From Clostridia bacterium (lineage in GTDB: Bacteria; Bacillota; Peptococcia; DRI-13; UBA5745), in NCBI GenBank assembly GCA_018434325.1, contig JAHDPO010000008.1, forward strand, positions 1 through 59,818: DNA of 59,818 nt. The letters run 5' to 3'. The notes beneath the pieces were generated by a model. It was given only the letters and a program-made list of their open reading frames with translations, had not been told where the DNA came from and did no database searches. Positions 5,049-47,237 of the stretch are shown one piece after another. The first letter of the stretch is position 1. Each line of letters begins with the position of its first letter. Made by a program: the position numbers and the translations under genes.

Positions 5049-7841
5049 TCATAAATGAATTTGCGGTGCATGGTCATCACGCTTGTGACCCTGCGCCTGT
5101 TTTTTCTCCTGCAGCTGACCTCTGCGCTTGCGGTCGATGTGATCGACACCGGCGCTTCTGCGATAGTCCTCATGAAACAGGTTCTCCAACTGGCGAAACA
5201 GTCTGGTGGCTGCCAACAGCACCGATGGATTGCTCTGGGCATTGATATTGTCGATGAGAAACTGCGCATAAGCATTGCCCTGCGCTGCAGATAGTCCCAG
5301 CCAGTACAAACTCTTTTCCTTATCACGAGGAACATCGCCATCATAGAAATACAACTTGCCCAGGGCATACTGCGAAAACTGGTTTCCCATTTCGGCGGAG
5401 GCGGTCAGCCAGCGGATCGCAGCCTTCGCATCCTTTGGCACATCCTCGCCCCCCAGATAGAGCTTGCCGAGTTGGTAAGCCGCAAACTCATTTTGTTGCT
5501 CTGCCGATAAGGTGAACAGCCGAATTGCCTCACTGACGTCCTTGGGCATATCCTCACCGGCAAGATGCAGCTTTGCCAGAGCATACTGCGCATAGGCATT
5601 GCCGAGATCAGAGGAGAGCGTGAACCACTTGACCGCTTCCGGAACATTCTTAGGGGTATCTGTACCGGCGAGATACAGCCTGCCAAGCTGATAGGCGGCG
5701 TACTCATTTTTTTGTTCTGCGGCGGCTGTGAACATGGCCACTGCCTTTTGAATATCTTTTTCCACATGAGCGCCATCCCGGTACAGCTTGCCAAGGGCAT
5801 ATTGCGCTCCGGCGTTTCCGGCTTCCGCTGCCTTGCTCATCCAAACTATCGCCTGTGCCGGATCACCGATGCCGGTTTCCAGACACACCTTACCCAGCAG
5901 ATACTGTGCATTGACATTTCCAAGCTGCGCCGATTTCTCCAGATAGGAAACCGCCGCCTGCACATCCTTGTCCGTACCGGTTCCGGTGTAGAGCATTTGA
6001 CCGAGGCGGTATTGCAGCCTATCATCATGGCTTTCCTGTTCCAGACGATAAAACCCGGTAAAGGCAGACTTGAAATGCTGGGAGGAAAGTTCAGGGCGCA
6101 CTGTGGTACCAACGCCATCCCGATACATCTTCGCCAATTCATAATCCGCATAAGGGTTGCCCTGTGCGGCAGACAGACTGTAGAGCTGCAGCGCTTTTAC
6201 ATAATCCTGCGGAACACCCTGACCACGGTAATACAAAGAGCCGAGAGAATATTGGGCATACTTGTGGTTCTTATCCACCGCTTCCTGAAACCATGAGGCT
6301 GCCTGCTCATAGTCCTGCACAGTGCCAAGACCGGAGGCGTGCATTTTTCCGATGCGATATTCCAGATAGGTCTTGGGCTTTTCTTCCTCTGCGGATAAAA
6401 AAGCAGTCAGAGTTTTTTCGTACCAAGCATGAGATGACTGTAAATCAATATCACGCCCCAAGCCATCCGCAAACATTCTGCCGAGATCATGCATGGCAAG
6501 GGCATTGCCGGATTCCGCTTCCAAAAGGAACAGCTGGTATGCCTCACTAAAATCCTGCGGAACATCCCCACTGCCATAGAGATATTGCCTCGCCAGTTTG
6601 TATTGCTCGCTCCACTCAGCATGAAAGGCCGCATCGGGAGGCTCCATAAAAGCATCATCCACATGAACATCGGCAGGCTCCGGCAGCTCCGGTTCCGGCA
6701 TTGCCTCATCCTCAAATGAAACATGGTGACCACCCAGCTTCAACGCTTCGGCAATCACCATGTTTTTAATGCTCTTAAATTGTTTCTGCTGGGATAGAGG
6801 CGGCAGGGGCGGCAGCTTATTTGAATAAGTCTTTAGGATTTCATTCTGCCAGTCGTTCCATGCCCGGTACAGCTTGTCGATTCGTTCCTCCTTGGCAAGC
6901 TCATCCACAATGCGGTCGATAATGGCTTTTACATCTGCTTTGAGATAACCATACACCTTTTTGCCCCCCGTGTTTTGAAGCCGTCTTGATAACAACAGCA
7001 GATCCGCTTCTATGGCTTTGTTTTCACCGACATGATTTTGCATCTGTGAAAGCAGTTCGGTCATTACATCGGCAGCACCTTGCTTGAGATCGCTTCTGGC
7101 GGCATTCTGGTGCTCATAAATGTGAGCGAAGTCTTGACGGAAGATATCATGCGCCATCTCTGAGCGCATGGCTTCGATAGCTGGCTGGGTGAGAAAGCCG
7201 TCATTGTCCTTGGCGGAGTAGACCATGAGATGCACATGGGGATGGTGGCTTTCATTGTGAAAGGCGGCATACCAGCGGAGATTCTCGCTGTCGATCTTCA
7301 TGTGCTTGGCAAGCATGGCTTTTTTACTGCGGAGCAAATCCTGCCACTGTTTTCCGCTGTCATACCCAAGCCTTGCGGCATCCTCCCGGCGCAGACTGAT
7401 AACATGAGTCCAGACAGCACCTTTGTTACCACACACATCCTCCTGCACTTGTGCCAGCACCACCGGAACGCCTGCATCGGTGAAGAGGCCATGCTCGCCG
7501 ATGCGCTCCACACGAGGGCGGCCTGCGATGTAATCCACATAGTTTTCCCGTTTGCCGATGAGGCCCCGGTTCTGCTCCAGTGCCAGAGAAATAAACTCAG
7601 TAGCGTTGCCGATGGTAGGGTTCTCGCAGTAGTCGGCATACTCCAGCATTTCCTTGGCAGAGGGAATATCCCGGATGAGCTGATTGATGAGCTGTTGCTG
7701 TTTTACCGTAGCCGGAAGCAGCAGCTTGCTCTCATCAATCTTTTCTACGCCATCACGGGTTCCGATGTACTTCACATAGTTTTCAAGCTGGGCTGGCGGA
7801 GCATCCCGCATATATTGCGAGGTGAAGATGATCTTTGGCAT
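5049..7841 (-). CDS. MobP-type relaxase fused to a Sel1-like repeat domain
   Basis: The protein has 930 residues from ATG 7841, with AAGGAGG just upstream. Residues ~1-340 are a MobP3-like relaxase: the metal-binding three-histidine motif lies in FHNESHHPHVHLMVYS (H199/H202/H204), preceded by WTHVISLRREDA. The nicking Tyr is probably one of those near the N-terminus (Y10, Y22, Y25), which is not resolved. From ~415 to ~880 there are about twelve Sel1/TPR-like repeats of ~36 residues (pattern AxYxLGKLYxxGxxVPKDxxxAxxWxxxSAxxGN). The relaxase would nick oriT and pilot the strand. The repeats suggest a docking role. Relaxase-Sel1 fusions occur in other Firmicutes elements. Confidence 0.9.
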   Translation of the reverse strand: MPKIIFTSQYMRDAPPAQLENYVKYIGTRDGVEKIDESKLLLPATVKQQQLINQLIRDIPSAKEMLEYADYCENPTIGNATEFISLALEQNRGLIGKRENYVDYIAGRPRVERIGEHGLFTDAGVPVVLAQVQEDVCGNKGAVWTHVISLRREDAARLGYDSGKQWQDLLRSKKAMLAKHMKIDSENLRWYAAFHNESHHPHVHLMVYSAKDNDGFLTQPAIEAMRSEMAHDIFRQDFAHIYEHQNAARSDLKQGAADVMTELLSQMQNHVGENKAIEADLLLLSRRLQNTGGKKVYGYLKADVKAIIDRIVDELAKEERIDKLYRAWNDWQNEILKTYSNKLPPLPPLSQQKQFKSIKNMVIAEALKLGGHHVSFEDEAMPEPELPEPADVHVDDAFMEPPDAAFHAEWSEQYKLARQYLYGSGDVPQDFSEAYQLFLLEAESGNALAMHDLGRMFADGLGRDIDLQSSHAWYEKTLTAFLSAEEEKPKTYLEYRIGKMHASGLGTVQDYEQAASWFQEAVDKNHKYAQYSLGSLYYRGQGVPQDYVKALQLYSLSAAQGNPYADYELAKMYRDGVGTTVRPELSSQHFKSAFTGFYRLEQESHDDRLQYRLGQMLYTGTGTDKDVQAAVSYLEKSAQLGNVNAQYLLGKVCLETGIGDPAQAIVWMSKAAEAGNAGAQYALGKLYRDGAHVEKDIQKAVAMFTAAAEQKNEYAAYQLGRLYLAGTDTPKNVPEAVKWFTLSSDLGNAYAQYALAKLHLAGEDMPKDVSEAIRLFTLSAEQQNEFAAYQLGKLYLGGEDVPKDAKAAIRWLTASAEMGNQFSQYALGKLYFYDGDVPRDKEKSLYWLGLSAAQGNAYAQFLIDNINAQSNPSVLLAATRLFRQLENLFHEDYRRSAGVDHIDRKRRGQLQEKKQAQGHKRDDHAPQIHL

Positions 7842-7865
7842 GGCGGCCTCCTTTCTGTGTTTTGG

Positions 7866-7900
7866 GCAAAAGAAAAGAGCGACCACGGTTGTGATCGCCC
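7866..7900 (-). terminator. Terminator-like hairpin between HEPN gene and relaxase
   Basis: On the minus strand GCGATCAC (7898-7891) pairs with GTGGTCGC (7886-7879; one G-U) around AACC, followed by TCTTTTCTTTT. The relaxase ribosome binding site follows within about 15 bases. It ends the HEPN transcript and could act as an attenuator for the relaxase. Confidence 0.65.
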
Positions 7901-33552: not shown

Positions 33553-33629
33553 TGGCGGAGCCGACGAGAGTCGAACTCGCGATCTCCTGCGTGACAGGCA
33601 GGCATGTTAGGCCACTACACCACGGCTCC
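33553..33629 (-). tRNA. tRNA-Asp (GTC), likely ICE attachment site
   Basis: On the minus strand the acceptor arms GGAGCCG/CGGCTCC, the D-arm, an anticodon stem CTGCC/… with loop CTGTCAC (anticodon GTC), and the TPsiC arm GCGAGTTCGACTCTCG… are all present. CCA is encoded at the 3' end (33555-33553). The ICE lies at its 3' side, the usual integration point of tyrosine recombinases. The duplicated att copy should lie at the far ICE end outside the window. Confidence 0.93.
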
Positions 33630-40645: not shown

Positions 40646-42031
40646 CTATGCTTCCGTTGCCTTAATCCAAATGGCGCATTCAAGCCGTTTTTTCTCTAAT
40701 TCACAGCCTAAATCATAAGGTTCTTTCAAATCCTGATTGAAATTCCAGGCGTTGGCATGGCAGCCGCCGCTGCAGTAGAATCTGGCCCAGCAAGCACGGC
40801 ATTTTTCTTTCGCCAGAACATGGCATTCACGGAAATTATTGCCGATCTCACGATTTTCTATACCTTTATCCACATTGCCTACCGCAAAGTCCGGGTTGCC
40901 CACGAATTGATGGCAGGGGTAAAGCGTCCCTTCCGGCGCCACGGCTAAATATTCATGACCGGCGCCGCAGCCGCTGAGGCGTTTAGGCAAGCAGGGCCCA
41001 TGATTCAAATCCAGGTTAAAATGGAAAAAGGTGAAAGGCTCGCCGGCCCGGGCCTTCGCCACATAATAACGGGCCAGCTCGTCGTATTGCCGGAAAAGCT
41101 CCGGCAGGTCCTCTTCACGAAAAGCGTATTCCTCCTGAGGCTGAGCCACCACCGGCTCCATAGAAACCAGATCAAAGCCTGACTCCACCATGTGGCGGAC
41201 ATCCTCAAAAAAATCCTTATTAAATCTGGTGTAAGTGCCCCGCAGATAATAATTGTCTCCACCCCGGGCCTCTACAGTCTCTTTGAAATGAGGCAGGATC
41301 ACGTCGTAACTGCCCTGGCCGCCGATGGCAGGCCGCATTCTGTCGTTGACTTCTTTGCGGCCGTCCAGGCTCAGCACTAAGGCAATTTCGTGTTCATTGA
41401 GAAAATCCAGAACCTGGCCTTGCAGAAGCAGGCCATTGGTGGTCAGCGTCTGCTTCAGCTCTTTGCCCCGACGGCGGCTTTCCGCCTCCCCATAAAGAAT
41501 CAGTTCTTTGACCACGGGGAAATTCATCAGCGGCTCGCCGCCAAAATAGTCTACTTCCACGTGTTTACGGCCGCCGGAGGCTTCAAATAAAAAGTCGAGC
41601 GCCTTTTTGCCCGTCTCCAGAGACATCAGACTGCGGTCGCCGCCAAAGGCGCCTGTGCCGGCAAAGCAGTAGCGGCAGCGCAGGTTGCAATCATGGGCTA
41701 CATGGAGGCAGAGGGCTTTTACTACATAGTCACTGGAGAACCGGTAGTCTTTAAGCTCCGGCGCCTCCGACAGCAGCATCCCTGCCGCCGCCAGCTCTGC
41801 CAAGCCCTGGCAGACCTCTTGTATATCGTCGGCAGTGCCTTCGGCAGTTAAAGCCGCCGCCAGCCCGGGGGAAGCTACCAGCTCCTCCAAATCACAGCCG
41901 GATTGCCGCCAGAACTGCACCACTTCATAAGCCAGGGGGCTTAATTGGTGGACAATGCCGCTATTAACGTCCAATAAGATATGGTCCTCACCAAAAGTGA
42001 ACAGGTGAGTCAGGTTCTCCGCAAATTTCAT
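40646..42031 (-). CDS. scfB: SCIFF peptide maturase (radical SAM, SPASM)
   Basis: The protein is 461 residues. An N-terminal peptide-recognition part (~1-95; FTFGEDHILLDVNSGIVHQL) precedes the radical-SAM motif C115-x3-C119-x2-C122 (CNLRCRYC) and a SPASM domain with its Cys set (CGAGHEYLAVAPEGTLYPC, then CRACWARFYCSGGC ... C). It forms thioether crosslinks in the SCIFF precursor encoded just upstream. Iron-sulfur clusters and AdoMet are the family cofactors. Confidence 0.95.
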   Translation of the reverse strand: MKFAENLTHLFTFGEDHILLDVNSGIVHQLSPLAYEVVQFWRQSGCDLEELVASPGLAAALTAEGTADDIQEVCQGLAELAAAGMLLSEAPELKDYRFSSDYVVKALCLHVAHDCNLRCRYCFAGTGAFGGDRSLMSLETGKKALDFLFEASGGRKHVEVDYFGGEPLMNFPVVKELILYGEAESRRRGKELKQTLTTNGLLLQGQVLDFLNEHEIALVLSLDGRKEVNDRMRPAIGGQGSYDVILPHFKETVEARGGDNYYLRGTYTRFNKDFFEDVRHMVESGFDLVSMEPVVAQPQEEYAFREEDLPELFRQYDELARYYVAKARAGEPFTFFHFNLDLNHGPCLPKRLSGCGAGHEYLAVAPEGTLYPCHQFVGNPDFAVGNVDKGIENREIGNNFRECHVLAKEKCRACWARFYCSGGCHANAWNFNQDLKEPYDLGCELEKKRLECAIWIKATEA

Positions 42032-42180: not shown

Positions 42181-42330
42181 CTACGCTTCCTTGCGGCAAA
42201 CCTGGTTGCCCACGGTGCAAGAGGTTTTGCAGGCAGACTGGCAGGAGGTCTGGCATTCGCCGCAGCCGCCGGTGCTGATCGTCTTGATCAGATTCTGCTT
42301 ATTGATGGTTTTAATATGCTTTGTAGACAT
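42181..42330 (-). CDS. scfA: SCIFF ribosomal peptide precursor (six Cys in forty-five)
   Basis: The protein is 49 residues: MSTKHIKTINKQ leader, then GGCGECQTSCQSACKTSC and TVGNQVCRKEA. It has six Cys (23, 26, 30, 34, 38, 45) in the characteristic spacing. ATG 42330 follows GAGGAG by 8 bases. The maturase gene lies 149 bases downstream. SCIFF is nearly universal in Clostridia; its final role is unsettled. Confidence 0.95.
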   Translation of the reverse strand: MSTKHIKTINKQNLIKTISTGGCGECQTSCQSACKTSCTVGNQVCRKEA

Positions 42331-42402
42331 AGGTGCATCTCCTCTATCTTTTGAAAAATTTACGCCGCGGCAAACAGTCCGGGCATTTTTTATCGTGCGG
42401 TT

Positions 42403-42494: not shown

Positions 42495-45368
42495 TCAGGA
42501 AATCCGGGCCACCTCCACCAGGTTGGTGTGCTGCGGGTTGCCTTTGGCCACCGGCGTAGGCTTGGTGTGGGTGAGTACATTGATGGACCCGCGGGTATCC
42601 GTCCCGTTTTGATCCGGCCTATACCAGGCTCCCTGGGGGATGGCCACCACGCCCTGCCTCACCCGGTCGGTCAGATGGGCGGGGATATGCACCCGTCCTC
42701 GGTCATTAAATACGGCGACTACTTCTCCCTCTGCAATCTTGCGTATGCGAGCATCTTCCGGATGGATCCACATTCTTTGGGGCTCCACCTCCTCCAGCCA
42801 CTCATTGTTGTCGTGGATGGAATGGCAGCGCCGTTTGGTGTGCCAGCCGATCATCTGCAACGGATATTTTGCCCGCAGCGGATCCTCGGGCCCTTCGGGG
42901 CAGGGAAGATGCTTAGGGATGGCGGGAATGTTTTCGGGATCATTCATCTCATACAACCGTTTTGAAAAGATCTCGATTTTCCCGGAAGGCGTCGAAAAGC
43001 GATGGGTTTCCAGGTCGCTTATCTGCTCTTCATAGGCGATGTAGGGTTTGTTTTCCTTATATTGATAACCGCCCTCCGCCCGGAATACAGAGAATTCCGG
43101 CAGCTCCTGTTCCTTTTGGCGCAGCTCGTTGTAAAGAGCTTCCAGCCACTGGGCGTAATGGGTAAAGCCGCCGCTCCACTGCTGCCACAGGCCAAGACGC
43201 CGGGCCACGTCCTCTATATGGCAATATTCGAACCTGCCCTCAAAAAGGGGTTCAACCGCCTTATTATTATATAGGAGATAGGAGCCGTAATCCCAGGGAG
43301 TTGCTATATTCTCATCTTCCAGGAAGGAGGCGCCGGGCAGGAGAATATCGGCATAGAGGGCGCTGGATGTCATAAACACATCGGAACAGAGGATGAATTC
43401 GCAAAGGGAGGTATCCTTCAGAATCCGGATGGTGTTATTGATGTCTGAATGCTGATTGACGAGGGTATTGCCTGCCAGATTCACCATCATTTTCATATTC
43501 GACTCCAGCTTTTCCACCCCTTCCAAGCCGTGCTCCCTCCGGTTCATCCCCACACCGTTTTCTATTGCGGTGGTCCAAAGAAAACAGGGGATGCGGCCCG
43601 GATAAGCGTCCGGCAGCGTGGGATAGGCAGGCAGCTGGTGCTCCTTGGATTGGGCGGCTCCGGCTCCGCCACCGCCCGGAATGCCGATATTGCCGGTGAG
43701 GCAGGTGAGAAGAGCCAGGCTGCGGGTGGCCTGTTCCCCGTTGCCGGTGCGCTGGATGCCCAGACCCGGCAGCAGACACATCGGTTTGGTTGTGGCAATT
43801 TCCCGGGCCAGCTGCCGGATGGTATCCGCCGGCACGCCGCAGACCGCCTCCGCCCATTCCGGCGTCTTGTGCAGACCGTCCTGTTTGCCAAAAAGGTAGG
43901 CCTCATAGCTTTGGTTCTCAGGAATTCCCTCCGGCATATGGGCTTCGTCGAAGCCGATGCAGTAGGTATCCATAAAGCGCCGGTCTGCCAGCCCCTCCGA
44001 CCAGATGACGTAAGCCATGCCGTCGGCCAGGGCGCTGTCGGTGGAAGGACGTATGGGAATCCACTGGTCGGCACAGGCAATGGCCGTATCGCTGTTGCGC
44101 GGGTCGATGACAATGACTCGCACTCCCGCTTCCCTGGCCTTGGCGAGATAATAGTTACGCTCCGAACCAAAAATGGTCTCAGTGGGGTTATGCCCCCATA
44201 AAATCAGCAGCTTGGTGTTGAGCACGTCGGCCAGGCTGTTGGCACTGTAAATATCGCCGTAGATATACGGCGTAATGTACCTTGTACAGGCGCTGCTATA
44301 GGAATTGTATCTCCCCAGGCAGCCGCCATCCAGATTAAACAGACGCTTGATCGCATTATCAGGCCGCAGGACGGCGCTGATCCCCGTTCCGTAATTAATA
44401 TAACGGGAACCCGGTCCATAGGCATCCCGGATGCGTACCCACTCGGCGGCGACGATGTCGGCGGCTTCTTCCCAGCTAATGCGGCGGAAGCGTCCTTCGC
44501 CCCTTTCGCCGATACGCTGCATGGGGTAGCGCAGCCGTTTGCCGTTCATATAAGTCTTGCGGTATCCTCTCCCCCGGATGCAGGCCCGGATCTGCGGAAA
44601 ATTCTCACTGGAATCAGTGGCGATGTTCAGAAGGCATCCCTCCTGCACCGTCGCCCGGATGATGCATTTACCGCCGCAGTTGTTGCGCCCGGCAGTGTTG
44701 ACGATTCTCTTTTCTCCCAAGGGGATTTCTGCCTGCCGCCCCATGGTTAATCCATCGGCAAAGGCTGCTTTCAGGGCCGCCTCAGCTGCCTCCGGCGGCA
44801 GTATAGCCGGGGCAAAAGCGGCAGCGCCTGAGAAAAAGCGAAGCATTTGTTCCGCCGCCGCAGCGAACACCGGGGTTGCGGAATATTGCAAAATCCCCTC
44901 CGCTACGGTACGGACGGTGTCGATCAGGTATTCGCCGGTGAAGCTCGCAATGGTCTCGAGGTAATCAGACGCCGAACCGCCGCCCTGCAAACCGTGGAGC
45001 CCGCCCCAGGCCAGATAAGCGAGAAAACGCAGCTGCTGCCCGATGTAGTCGGGGGGATTGCCATCCATTGCAACAGGAGCATATCCCCATTTGTAATACC
45101 GGCTGATGACGCCCAGAGTCGTTTCATCCAATAGGATATCCCCGTTATTTTTGCAGGCGGAAGCCCAGAGGGGAATATAGACCGCCGCATTTGTCCCCTT
45201 GAACAAATCGTCGTATTCCTGCAGAGCGGCGGGGCTATCGGCGCCGGCCAACAGGGCGGCATCCAGCAGCTGCCACTGTTTGCTTTGGGTAATCCAGGCA
45301 GAGTAGTCGGTGAAGAAAGAGGAAAGCCATAAATAAGAAAAGCCCTCCCTCAGTAAACGTTCTTTCAT
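42495..45368 (-). CDS. DMSO-reductase-family molybdoenzyme fused to a TorD-like chaperone
   Basis: The protein is 957 residues. Residues ~1-185 are helical and end in GEYLIDTVRTVAEGILQYS and EQMLRFF, as in TorD/NarJ chaperones. From ~220 a molybdopterin oxidoreductase follows: NNCGGKC (C231, C235) and RACIRGRGYR (C263) for the iron-sulfur cluster, YNSYSSAC with the Ser of the Mo-ligand position, and a C-terminal dinucleotide-binding domain (HTKRRCHSIHDNN). No Tat signal, so it is probably cytoplasmic. The first Cys of the usual four is not seen (Gly at that place). It ends an operon with an FAD enzyme and a ferredoxin. Substrate unknown. Confidence 0.9.
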   Translation of the reverse strand: MKERLLREGFSYLWLSSFFTDYSAWITQSKQWQLLDAALLAGADSPAALQEYDDLFKGTNAAVYIPLWASACKNNGDILLDETTLGVISRYYKWGYAPVAMDGNPPDYIGQQLRFLAYLAWGGLHGLQGGGSASDYLETIASFTGEYLIDTVRTVAEGILQYSATPVFAAAAEQMLRFFSGAAAFAPAILPPEAAEAALKAAFADGLTMGRQAEIPLGEKRIVNTAGRNNCGGKCIIRATVQEGCLLNIATDSSENFPQIRACIRGRGYRKTYMNGKRLRYPMQRIGERGEGRFRRISWEEAADIVAAEWVRIRDAYGPGSRYINYGTGISAVLRPDNAIKRLFNLDGGCLGRYNSYSSACTRYITPYIYGDIYSANSLADVLNTKLLILWGHNPTETIFGSERNYYLAKAREAGVRVIVIDPRNSDTAIACADQWIPIRPSTDSALADGMAYVIWSEGLADRRFMDTYCIGFDEAHMPEGIPENQSYEAYLFGKQDGLHKTPEWAEAVCGVPADTIRQLAREIATTKPMCLLPGLGIQRTGNGEQATRSLALLTCLTGNIGIPGGGGAGAAQSKEHQLPAYPTLPDAYPGRIPCFLWTTAIENGVGMNRREHGLEGVEKLESNMKMMVNLAGNTLVNQHSDINNTIRILKDTSLCEFILCSDVFMTSSALYADILLPGASFLEDENIATPWDYGSYLLYNNKAVEPLFEGRFEYCHIEDVARRLGLWQQWSGGFTHYAQWLEALYNELRQKEQELPEFSVFRAEGGYQYKENKPYIAYEEQISDLETHRFSTPSGKIEIFSKRLYEMNDPENIPAIPKHLPCPEGPEDPLRAKYPLQMIGWHTKRRCHSIHDNNEWLEEVEPQRMWIHPEDARIRKIAEGEVVAVFNDRGRVHIPAHLTDRVRQGVVAIPQGAWYRPDQNGTDTRGSINVLTHTKPTPVAKGNPQHTNLVEVARIS

Positions 45369-46648
45369 ATACTCGCCTCCTTGCCAAAAAATTCGCTGCG
45401 GCTATAGCCGCCGGCCACCGCTTTGCGCACCTGCTGCATATCCGCAAGATCGCCCAGAAGCGCCGCTCCCAGCAGCTTACCCTCGGCAAAAAAATACTTT
45501 CGGTGAGGGGCAGCCGTACCCGGATAAGGATTAACCCGATACAGCGGAGCCGTCTTTACCTTGTTGTCCCAAACAATCTCATATGTCATATCCGCTCGTT
45601 TTCCTGCATCGCCAATGGCAAATAGCGCAGTGCCCACAGCGTGAACCAAAATCGGGTCGGGTATAGCGTCATAAACCAGATCGTCGCCGGCAGCGTTGGC
45701 GCCTGCCACATAGCCTTGGCCGCAAGCATTGGTCCAGGTGCCGCTATTGACGCCCTCCAGCTCAGCGCAATCGCCACAGGCGTAGAGGTCAGTAGCGCTG
45801 GTTTCCATACGGGCATTGACCTTCACCGACCGGCCGCAGTCGATTCCTCCTTGCTTGGCAGGCTCGACGTTGGGCCGGATACCTGCTGACAGCACAACGA
45901 AATCGGCGGGGCAAGTCCCGGCGCCAGCCAAGGCGACGCCCTCCGCCGCTCCCGCTCCGGTAATACCGGTCACCTTGGCGCCGGTCACAACGTTAATCCC
46001 TGCTTCCCGCACCGCCTGCTCCAGCAAGCCGGCCGTTTCCTCATCCAGCAGACGCTCCATCAGCGTGGCGGCAACCTCCAGAATGGTTACCTCCAACCCC
46101 GCTTTCTTTATTTCCCAAGCGATCTCCAGACCGATAACCCCACCGCCGATGACCACCGCCCGTTTTGCCCGCAATATCTGACGGCGCATTTTCTCGATGT
46201 CGCAATCCCGCCGAACCGTGATAACACCCGGCATTTCACTTCCCGGGATGGGCGGGATATTGCTCTCCGCTCCCAGTGCATAGATGCATTTATCGTATTG
46301 CAGAACATGGCCGTTTGCCAGCTGTACGCTCTTGCTTTCCGGGCGCACTGCAATGACGCGACTGCTCCTTTGTACCCTGATCCCATTTTCCCGGTACCAA
46401 TTCTCGTCGTGGACGATGTAGGGCCCGGTGGAAAATCCCCGCAGCGGAGTTTTGGTGAGCATAGGGCGGCTATAGGGCAGAACCCCTTCGTCCGTCAGCA
46501 TCAAAATTTCAGCGGTGCAGTTGCGTTCCCGGATGGCAATCGCCGCCCGCAGCGCCGCAACGCCGCCGCCCAGAATTAAAAACCTCTCCTCGGAATCTTT
46601 GCGAAAGGCGGCTTCCGCCAGCTCTAAAGGGCCTTTGGCTTTACTCAT
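45365..46648 (-). CDS. FAD/NAD(P)-dependent oxidoreductase (Pyr_redox_2)
   Basis: The protein is 427 residues. ATG 46648 overlaps the upstream stop (ATGAGTAA); its own stop overlaps the molybdoenzyme start (ATGA). FAD site FLILGGGVAALRAAIAI, NAD(P) site VVIGGGVIGLEIAWEI, and the second FAD motif DLYACGDCAE are present. The C-terminal part recalls the NirB/rubredoxin-reductase group. It probably passes electrons between NAD(P)H, the ferredoxin and the molybdoenzyme. Confidence 0.88.
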   Translation of the reverse strand: MSKAKGPLELAEAAFRKDSEERFLILGGGVAALRAAIAIRERNCTAEILMLTDEGVLPYSRPMLTKTPLRGFSTGPYIVHDENWYRENGIRVQRSSRVIAVRPESKSVQLANGHVLQYDKCIYALGAESNIPPIPGSEMPGVITVRRDCDIEKMRRQILRAKRAVVIGGGVIGLEIAWEIKKAGLEVTILEVAATLMERLLDEETAGLLEQAVREAGINVVTGAKVTGITGAGAAEGVALAGAGTCPADFVVLSAGIRPNVEPAKQGGIDCGRSVKVNARMETSATDLYACGDCAELEGVNSGTWTNACGQGYVAGANAAGDDLVYDAIPDPILVHAVGTALFAIGDAGKRADMTYEIVWDNKVKTAPLYRVNPYPGTAAPHRKYFFAEGKLLGAALLGDLADMQQVRKAVAGGYSRSEFFGKEASI

Positions 46649-47237
46649 TTCCTTCACCCGTCTTCCCTGCACACTCTGTCTTATCTGCTCTCGCTGCCTT
46701 ATCTATCTTGATCAAAAGCGCAGGACGGGTGACATCATATCCCGGCAAAACGGATAATTCCGCCACGGTATTGCTGCCATATTTGGCAGCCAGTTTCTCC
46801 AGCTCGCCAAAATGAAGGCAATGGGTAACGCAAGCATCCATGCAGGCAGGCTGCTTGCCCTCGCTGCGCAAATCAGCGCAAGAATCACATTTGCCCGCGG
46901 CGCCGCTTTGGTGACTGAAGGCCGGCGCACCGTATGGGCAAGCCCAGATGCACTGTCCGCAACCGATGCATTTGCTGCGATTCTGGAGCAGCGTGCCGTC
47001 GCCGGCCTGATAGGTGGCTCCGGTAGGGCATGCCTCGATGCAGGCGGGATTTTCACAATGATTGCAAGCCCCGGAAAAGTGGCGAAGCCGTTTGCCTTCC
47101 GCCTCCTCCACCTCGCAGGTGGTCACGCTCCGGAAAAATACTCCCGGCTCCAGATTATTCTTATCCTTGCAGGCAACCTGGCAGGCTTTACAGCCAATGC
47201 AGCGCTCCATTTCAAAGTAAAACCCTAACCTGGGCAT
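46641..47237 (-). CDS. DmsB-like four-cluster ferredoxin subunit
   Basis: The protein is 198 residues. Four Cys groups for [4Fe-4S] clusters: CIGCKACQVAC, CNHCENPACIEACP, CIGCGQCIWACP, and CDSC ... CMDAC. The order matches DmsB/NrfC-type electron-transfer subunits. No membrane-anchor gene follows, so the complex is likely soluble. AGGAGG lies 6 bases before ATG 47237; it is the first gene of the operon. Confidence 0.92.
   Translation of the reverse strand: MPRLGFYFEMERCIGCKACQVACKDKNNLEPGVFFRSVTTCEVEEAEGKRLRHFSGACNHCENPACIEACPTGATYQAGDGTLLQNRSKCIGCGQCIWACPYGAPAFSHQSGAAGKCDSCADLRSEGKQPACMDACVTHCLHFGELEKLAAKYGSNTVAELSVLPGYDVTRPALLIKIDKAARADKTECAGKTGEGNE

Follow-up and report, generated by a model that had tools for sequence, protein, structure and literature searches.

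A TorD-DmsA fusion molybdoenzyme encoded with ferredoxin and FAD subunits in a Clostridia bacterium

Introduction

How could an enzyme of the dimethyl sulfoxide (DMSO) reductase family acquire its metal cofactor and its electrons if it carries neither an export signal nor a membrane anchor, and what would it reduce? The question is raised by a three-gene operon on the minus strand (47237-42495) of a 59,818-nucleotide stretch of DNA from a Clostridia bacterium (contig JAHDPO010000008.1, assembly GCA_018434325.1), the whole of which is called the window here. A sequence-only reading had placed the operon correctly at 42495-47237 and had proposed that it encodes a cytoplasmic reductase of unknown substrate. 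We find that the TorD-DmsA fusion encoded there is a real variant of the DMSO reductase family, apparently undescribed, all its pieces being known and their arrangement new. With a probability of roughly 60%, the operon specifies a soluble cytoplasmic reductase of S- or N-oxides, linked to nicotinamide adenine dinucleotide (NAD(H)) and carrying its chaperone in cis.

The operon and the fusion protein

The three genes overlap without gaps, in the order ferredoxin, flavin adenine dinucleotide (FAD) protein and TorD-DmsA fusion. The first (46641-47237) encodes a DmsB-like, four-cluster [4Fe-4S] ferredoxin-type subunit of 198 residues, and its stop overlaps by 8 nt the gene for a 427-residue FAD/NAD oxidoreductase of the NirB-N/FNOR type (45365-46648), for which the ATG at 46648 is the most likely start, in preference to a GTG at 46672. 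The stop of the FAD gene overlaps the start of the third gene by 4 nt (ATGA); that gene (42495-45368) encodes the 957-residue fusion molybdoenzyme. The GC content of the region, 0.54-0.58, is somewhat above that of most of the window. Promoter and terminator scans gave site numbers not above those of shuffled sequence, and no molybdenum or S-adenosylmethionine (SAM) riboswitch was found in the window region or in nine related loci.

Residues 31-148 of the fusion match PF02613, the family of the NarJ/DmsD/TorD chaperones, with 35 bits when the whole protein is searched. The TorD domain and linker alone (residues 1-215, 44724-45368) score 38.9 bits, over the gathering cut-off of 22.2, and the domain is 41% and 29% identical to those of two related loci, L026 and L032 (loci and genomes are designated by numbers with L and G). 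The catalytic part (residues 212-956) passes TIGR02166, the model for the DmsA/YnfE subfamily, with 880.7 bits against a cut-off of 777.7. It falls far under the cut-offs of the YnfE and YnfF exception models (670.6 of 1675 and 630.8 of 1650) and reaches 385.7 bits with the BisC model TIGR00509 (cut-off 1017.55), while keeping three of the cysteines that ligate the iron-sulfur cluster FS0. Ser358 (44295-44297), at the YSS/YST motif position, aligns with the motif Ser of Rhodobacter DMSO reductase and is unchanged across 27 sequences; the Ser of the YST motif is the molybdenum ligand in this family, and Ser358 is predicted to have that role. By its TIGR02166 score and its Ser ligand, the sequence places the fusion in the DmsA/YnfE family, from which it departs in lacking the full FS0 motif.

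There is no twin-arginine pair in the first 60 residues. A Kyte-Doolittle scan (19-residue window, threshold 1.6) gave no window above the threshold in any of the three proteins, compared with 72 in the DmsC control, the control proteins giving the expected signals, and no DmsC anchor gene was found beside the operon. The products are accordingly not predicted to form a membrane-bound respiratory complex of the DmsABC type. Both the fusion of a TorD-like domain to a DMSO-reductase-family enzyme without a twin-arginine translocation (Tat) signal and the lack of a membrane anchor thus stand as the sequence-only reading had them.

The AlphaFold2 model of the fusion, built from an alignment that did not include E. 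coli DmsA, has a mean predicted local distance difference test score (pLDDT) of 90.7 and a predicted template modelling score (pTM) of 0.91. Its TorD domain is helical, and the nearest solved folds to the protein are those of TorA, the methionine sulfoxide reductase MtsZ and Rhodobacter DMSO reductase.

Distribution and origin of the fusion

Apart from the window protein, nine TorD-DmsA fusions came to light; spirochaete genomes account for eight of them and another member of the Bacillota for the ninth. A full-length relative with 56% identity, from a Spirochaetaceae assembly (L026), came from a scan of named genomes. Of 398 genomes sampled from its own phylum, two carry the fusion, the window genome and G083; the 46 genomes searched in its own class yielded no other case, the two matches there (G029 and G038) being unfused, and the fusion is absent from the four congeners searched. 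In the spirochaetes it is present in seven of 200 genomes of one family (G428, G641, G1135, G1148, G1317, G1341 and G1343), and the complete genome G641 (4,059,867 bases) holds two copies. The fusions at the other nine loci have no signal peptide.

On the tree, the window protein lies within a clade of eight fusions (support 95/96), of which the other seven are spirochaetal. This clade, together with the absence of the fusion from the congeners, indicates horizontal transfer, and the fusion is probably shared between Bacillota and spirochaetes by that route. A single origin of the fusion was considered and is unsupported on the tree, which has at least three changes of label (gains or losses).

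The gene order recurs as well. In one spirochaete (L084, genome G1148) the C-terminus of a ferredoxin, in frame and with the fourth-cluster Cys group, is followed by a 407-residue FAD protein and then by the fusion, which is cut by the contig end. Since fusion and gene order are both found in another phylum, the operon is not a chance assembly. Elsewhere the partners vary: a ferredoxin gene immediately precedes the fusion in L093 and follows it in L032, and neither a ferredoxin nor an FAD gene adjoins it in L059, L060, L085, L092, L094 or L026. The fusion is thus what all these loci share, with a modular electron supply. The recurrence of the three genes in L084 supports a functional unit; the earlier suggestion of a three-gene complex has to be amended in that the FAD partner is optional, the core being the fusion, sometimes with a ferredoxin.

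The electron-transfer partners

Four groups of cysteines in the window ferredoxin take up 16 of its 19 Cys. The protein scores 170.2 bits against the DmsB equivalog model TIGR02951, below the cut-off of 214.1 with the four-cluster pattern present, and is 48% identical to the ferredoxin adjoining the fusion in L093. The FAD protein matches Pyr_redox_2 (PF07992) with 199.5 bits and is 45% identical to its counterpart in L084. In NCBIfam it is nearest to the N-terminus of NirB and to PadH, and among the matches listed it is under every curated cut-off. Its FAD and NAD motifs are GGGVAAL and GGGVIGLE, and a Glu ends the second Rossmann strand; the acidic residue at that point suggests a preference for NADH. 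The partners are therefore those named in the sequence-only reading, a four-cluster ferredoxin and an FAD/NAD(P) oxidoreductase.

No close homologue of the FAD protein was found in the fusion genomes G428, G641, G1135, G1317, G1341 and G1343. The FAD homologues that relatives do have sit in CooS-CooF-FNOR clusters (L061 and L063, names read from the sequences) and are only about 35-36% identical to the window protein. A module of the ferredoxin CooF with an FAD-dependent NAD(P) oxidoreductase (FNOR) is known beside nickel carbon monoxide dehydrogenase (Ni-CODH) (PMC6344411). The window and L084 likewise have a ferredoxin gene and an FAD/NAD(P) oxidoreductase gene adjacent in one operon.

The FS0 motif

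The FS0 motif of the fusion (residues 227-263, 44580-44690) reads GRNNCGGKC...C where E. coli DmsA has CTVNCGSRC...C. The alignment confirms that the first Cys is replaced, by Gly227, as had been suspected. The remaining cysteines (231, 235 and 263) are invariant in 27 aligned sequences, 16 of which have Gly at the first position. These include L030 and L031, each with a Tat signal and with DmsB and DmsC, as well as three soluble enzymes that are not fused (L027, L086 and L095). Gly as a hallmark of the fusion was rejected, since seven loci have it without being fused (L014 and L021 besides the five just named) and L085, the only fusion found with the first Cys, lacks it. Cys and other residues interchange at this position in three steps on the tree. 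On the sequences compared, Gly227 is genuine and long established in this subclade of the DmsA family, and is tied to the soluble complex by descent only. One further DmsA-type frame, at L011 (1393-3609), has an N-terminus without the FS0 CxxxC motif altogether, perhaps through a frameshift.

A substitute ligand was sought nearby. Cys245 is kept in eight of nine spirochaete-type fusions, the window protein included, and is absent from the others. The model places it at the start of the second of two hairpin strands (236-242 and 245-250), the first of which begins just after Cys235. It would therefore lie at the far end of the hairpin from Cys235 and is an unlikely fourth ligand; in L085, moreover, it occurs together with the first FS0 Cys. 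Residues 227 and 229 covary: Gly227 is present in each of the 12 sequences with Asn229, and Cys227 pairs with His, Thr or Val. Asn229 is thus a candidate compensation for Gly227, the covariation being partly a matter of shared descent. The cluster may be of the 3Fe-4S type, or a site-differentiated 4Fe-4S cluster with one non-protein or Asn ligand.

Salmonella DmsA paralogues have been reported to reduce sulfate at FS0 without molybdenum cofactor (2025 preprint, PMC12636705) and, if that report is right, the altered FS0 of the fusion could be more than a relay. The fusion might then represent a family of cytoplasmic molybdoenzymes in which a permanent in-cis chaperone is joined to a three-Cys, site-differentiated FS0, its iron open or bound by Asn229. 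Such a cluster would have a function of its own, perhaps that of a redox switch or of an additional substrate site, in place of a simple relay role. We regard the odds as long against this combination.

Gene neighbourhoods of the related fusions

In L085 (5538-9054) the fusion gene is followed in tandem by mobA, with divergent metQ-metN-metI alongside, and the surroundings also hold an M20 amidohydrolase and a pyridoxal phosphate-dependent enzyme of the cystathionine/methionine-lyase type. Amino-acid ATP-binding cassette (ABC) transporters surround the fusion in L060; an oligopeptide ABC transporter and genes for M24 and acyltransferase/C45-type hydrolases precede it in L059; an amino-acid permease precedes it in L093 and an M20 peptidase follows it in L094. 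The molybdenum cofactor gene moaC is present in the window genome and in seven of eight other genomes tested; the pathway is thus present in the window genome.

Two observations were made in passing. At L027 (6030-10187, Oscillospiraceae), genes resembling etfB and etfA are directly followed by that for a DmsA-type enzyme which carries the Gly motif and is neither fused nor equipped with a signal peptide; there is no ferredoxin gene, and the enzyme is possibly a soluble molybdoenzyme linked to electron-transfer flavoprotein (ETF). A few genes upstream of the spirochaete fusion in L094 lies a gene for a nitrogenase component-1-type protein (92-1474; PF00148, 230 bits), which is under the cut-off of every Nif model among the matches listed.

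Proposed function and alternatives

From these features we infer the formation of a complex, its electron path and NADH preference, the role of the chaperone domain in cis and the substrate class, as follows. NADH would reduce the FAD protein in the cytoplasm, and electrons would pass from FAD to the DmsB-like ferredoxin, along its four clusters to FS0 and on to the Ser-ligated molybdenum-bis(pyranopterin guanine dinucleotide) (Mo-bisPGD) centre, which would take the oxygen atom off an S- or N-oxide. The TorD domain at the N-terminus would replace a separate DmsD or NarJ chaperone, holding the apo-enzyme in cis for the insertion of FS0 and Mo-bisPGD. In NarG and DmsA, FS0 is inserted before Mo-bisPGD in a chaperone-dependent manner (PMC10609526). 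As the enzyme would never be exported, the proofreading of export would be superfluous and the folding task alone would be left to the chaperone, and a permanent tether could then be afforded. DmsA made without its signal peptide gives a soluble DmsAB that is active in the cytoplasm (PMC10609526). The physiological role would be oxide repair, assimilation or a sink for NADH, as for BisC, and not quinol respiration.

Deoxygenation of S- or N-oxides is indicated by the type of enzyme, the Ser ligand and the nearest solved folds, and the likely substrates would be oxides derived from amino acids. Methionine sulfoxide comes first among these, the leads being the metNIQ genes beside L085 and the structural match to MtsZ, and is put forward tentatively as the main substrate, at less than even odds. 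Both methionine sulfoxide and N-oxides are known substrates of DmsABC from E. coli and H. influenzae (PMC12096835). The substrate, left blank in the sequence-only reading, is to this modest degree narrowed. The cytoplasmic, anchor-free reductase which that reading proposed, linked to NAD(P)H or ferredoxin, is supported as the best explanation.

Several points weigh against the proposal. The FAD partner is missing from most fusion loci, having been seen only in the window and L084, and NADH linkage through this protein therefore cannot be general. A three-Cys FS0 might be a poor electron carrier; a degenerate 3Fe FS0 in DmsA variants is said, in work of Tang et al. from 2011, to have accompanied loss of molybdenum cofactor binding. 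The neighbours in the window have no relation to amino acids, and the argument for methionine is weak because transporter genes are common.

The scarcity of the FAD gene also bears on the direction of electron flow. A low-potential ferredoxin or ETF could be the donor, with the FAD subunit exchanging electrons with NAD+, much as has been proposed for the FNOR of Ni-CODH clusters. The siting of FAD homologues in CooS-CooF-FNOR clusters (L061 and L063), the several fusions without an FAD gene, and the soluble unfused relative beside etfBA in L027 all agree with such a scheme. We consider it unlikely, however, as NADH is the simplest net donor for an oxide reductase of this type, with its Ser ligand and DmsA-subfamily sequence.

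It is also rather improbable that the substrates are oxyanions (selenate, tellurate, nitrate or chlorate) or hydroxylamines and hydroxamates in place of S- and N-oxides. TIGR02166 does include the selenate/tellurate reductases YnfE and YnfF, and some fusions have genes nearby for hydrolases that act on N-acylated compounds. Nevertheless, the YnfE and YnfF exception models are far from satisfied, none of the adjacent genes is for oxyanion transport or resistance, and the closest folds are those of S- and N-oxide reductases, though fold does not fix substrate.

That the fusion gene is chimaeric or in decay, its TorD domain vestigial and the FAD gene a chance neighbour, is scarcely credible: the Pfam similarity of the domain is modest (35 bits) and one relative (G1339) is broken by a stop codon, but nine fused frames are uninterrupted and a tenth is ended solely by the contig end, all ten fused N-termini pass the PF02613 cut-off, the FAD-fusion order is common to two phyla and pLDDT is over 85 across most of the TorD domain.

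Significance

No description of a natural fusion of TorD or DmsD to a molybdoenzyme, and no characterised homologue with the same three genes, was found in the open-access papers searched. Members of the NarJ/DmsD/TorD chaperone family usually leave once they have acted, and this makes them hard to catch with their clients. Where nature has fused the two, chaperone and enzyme are tethered one to one, and the insertion of FS0 and Mo-bisPGD could be studied apart from Tat export. It would also be an example of a DmsA-type enzyme relocated to the cytoplasm and wired to NADH.

Other features of the window

A tRNA-Gly gene lies upstream of the operon. Directly downstream, also on the minus strand, are the short and easily missed gene for a SCIFF (six-cysteine) peptide (42201-42331) and that for its radical SAM thioether maturase (40646-42031; TIGR03974, 605.6 bits). 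These neighbours fit a Bacillota genome. The region 1796-32230 (minus strand) looks like an integrated conjugative element, with genes for a type IV secretion system coupling protein, a Toprim/DUF3991 protein, a TraG-like ATPase, a type II secretion ATPase (T2SSE) and an A24 leader peptidase, and, at 5049-7886, a MobL relaxase fused to seven Sel1 repeats. A tRNA-Asp gene is near it (33553-33629).

Comparison with known systems

Compared to DmsABC and YnfEFGH, the window system has a catalytic subunit of the same dmsA_ynfE subfamily, a DmsB-like four-cluster subunit, the Mo-ligand Ser and three of the four FS0 Cys. It differs in having no Tat signal and no DmsC anchor, and a Gly for the first FS0 Cys; the chaperone, separate there as DmsD, is here fused in cis, and an FAD/NAD subunit stands in place of the quinol-binding anchor. 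NarGHI with NarJ shares the cytoplasm-facing active site and a chaperone of the same family that inserts FS0 and Mo-bisPGD (PMC10609526), but NarJ is separate, NarG is anchored by NarI, and its FS0 is coordinated by His where Gly stands here.

For the electron module, the closest precedent is the CooF-FNOR arrangement of Ni-CODH clusters, where a four-cluster ferredoxin and an FAD-dependent NAD(P) oxidoreductase also lie beside a cytoplasmic metalloenzyme (PMC6344411). The likeness extends to the module only, since the catalytic partner there is Ni-CODH and not a molybdoenzyme. The cytoplasmic biotin/methionine sulfoxide reductase BisC belongs to the same superfamily, is not exported, and probably occupies the same physiological niche (PMC12096835, PMC10609526). 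It is, however, a single subunit without FeS clusters, and has been described as the only monomer in its group that is not exported (PMC10609526). The fusion system is best read as combining a role like that of BisC with a build like that of DmsAB, its maturation chaperone being carried in cis.

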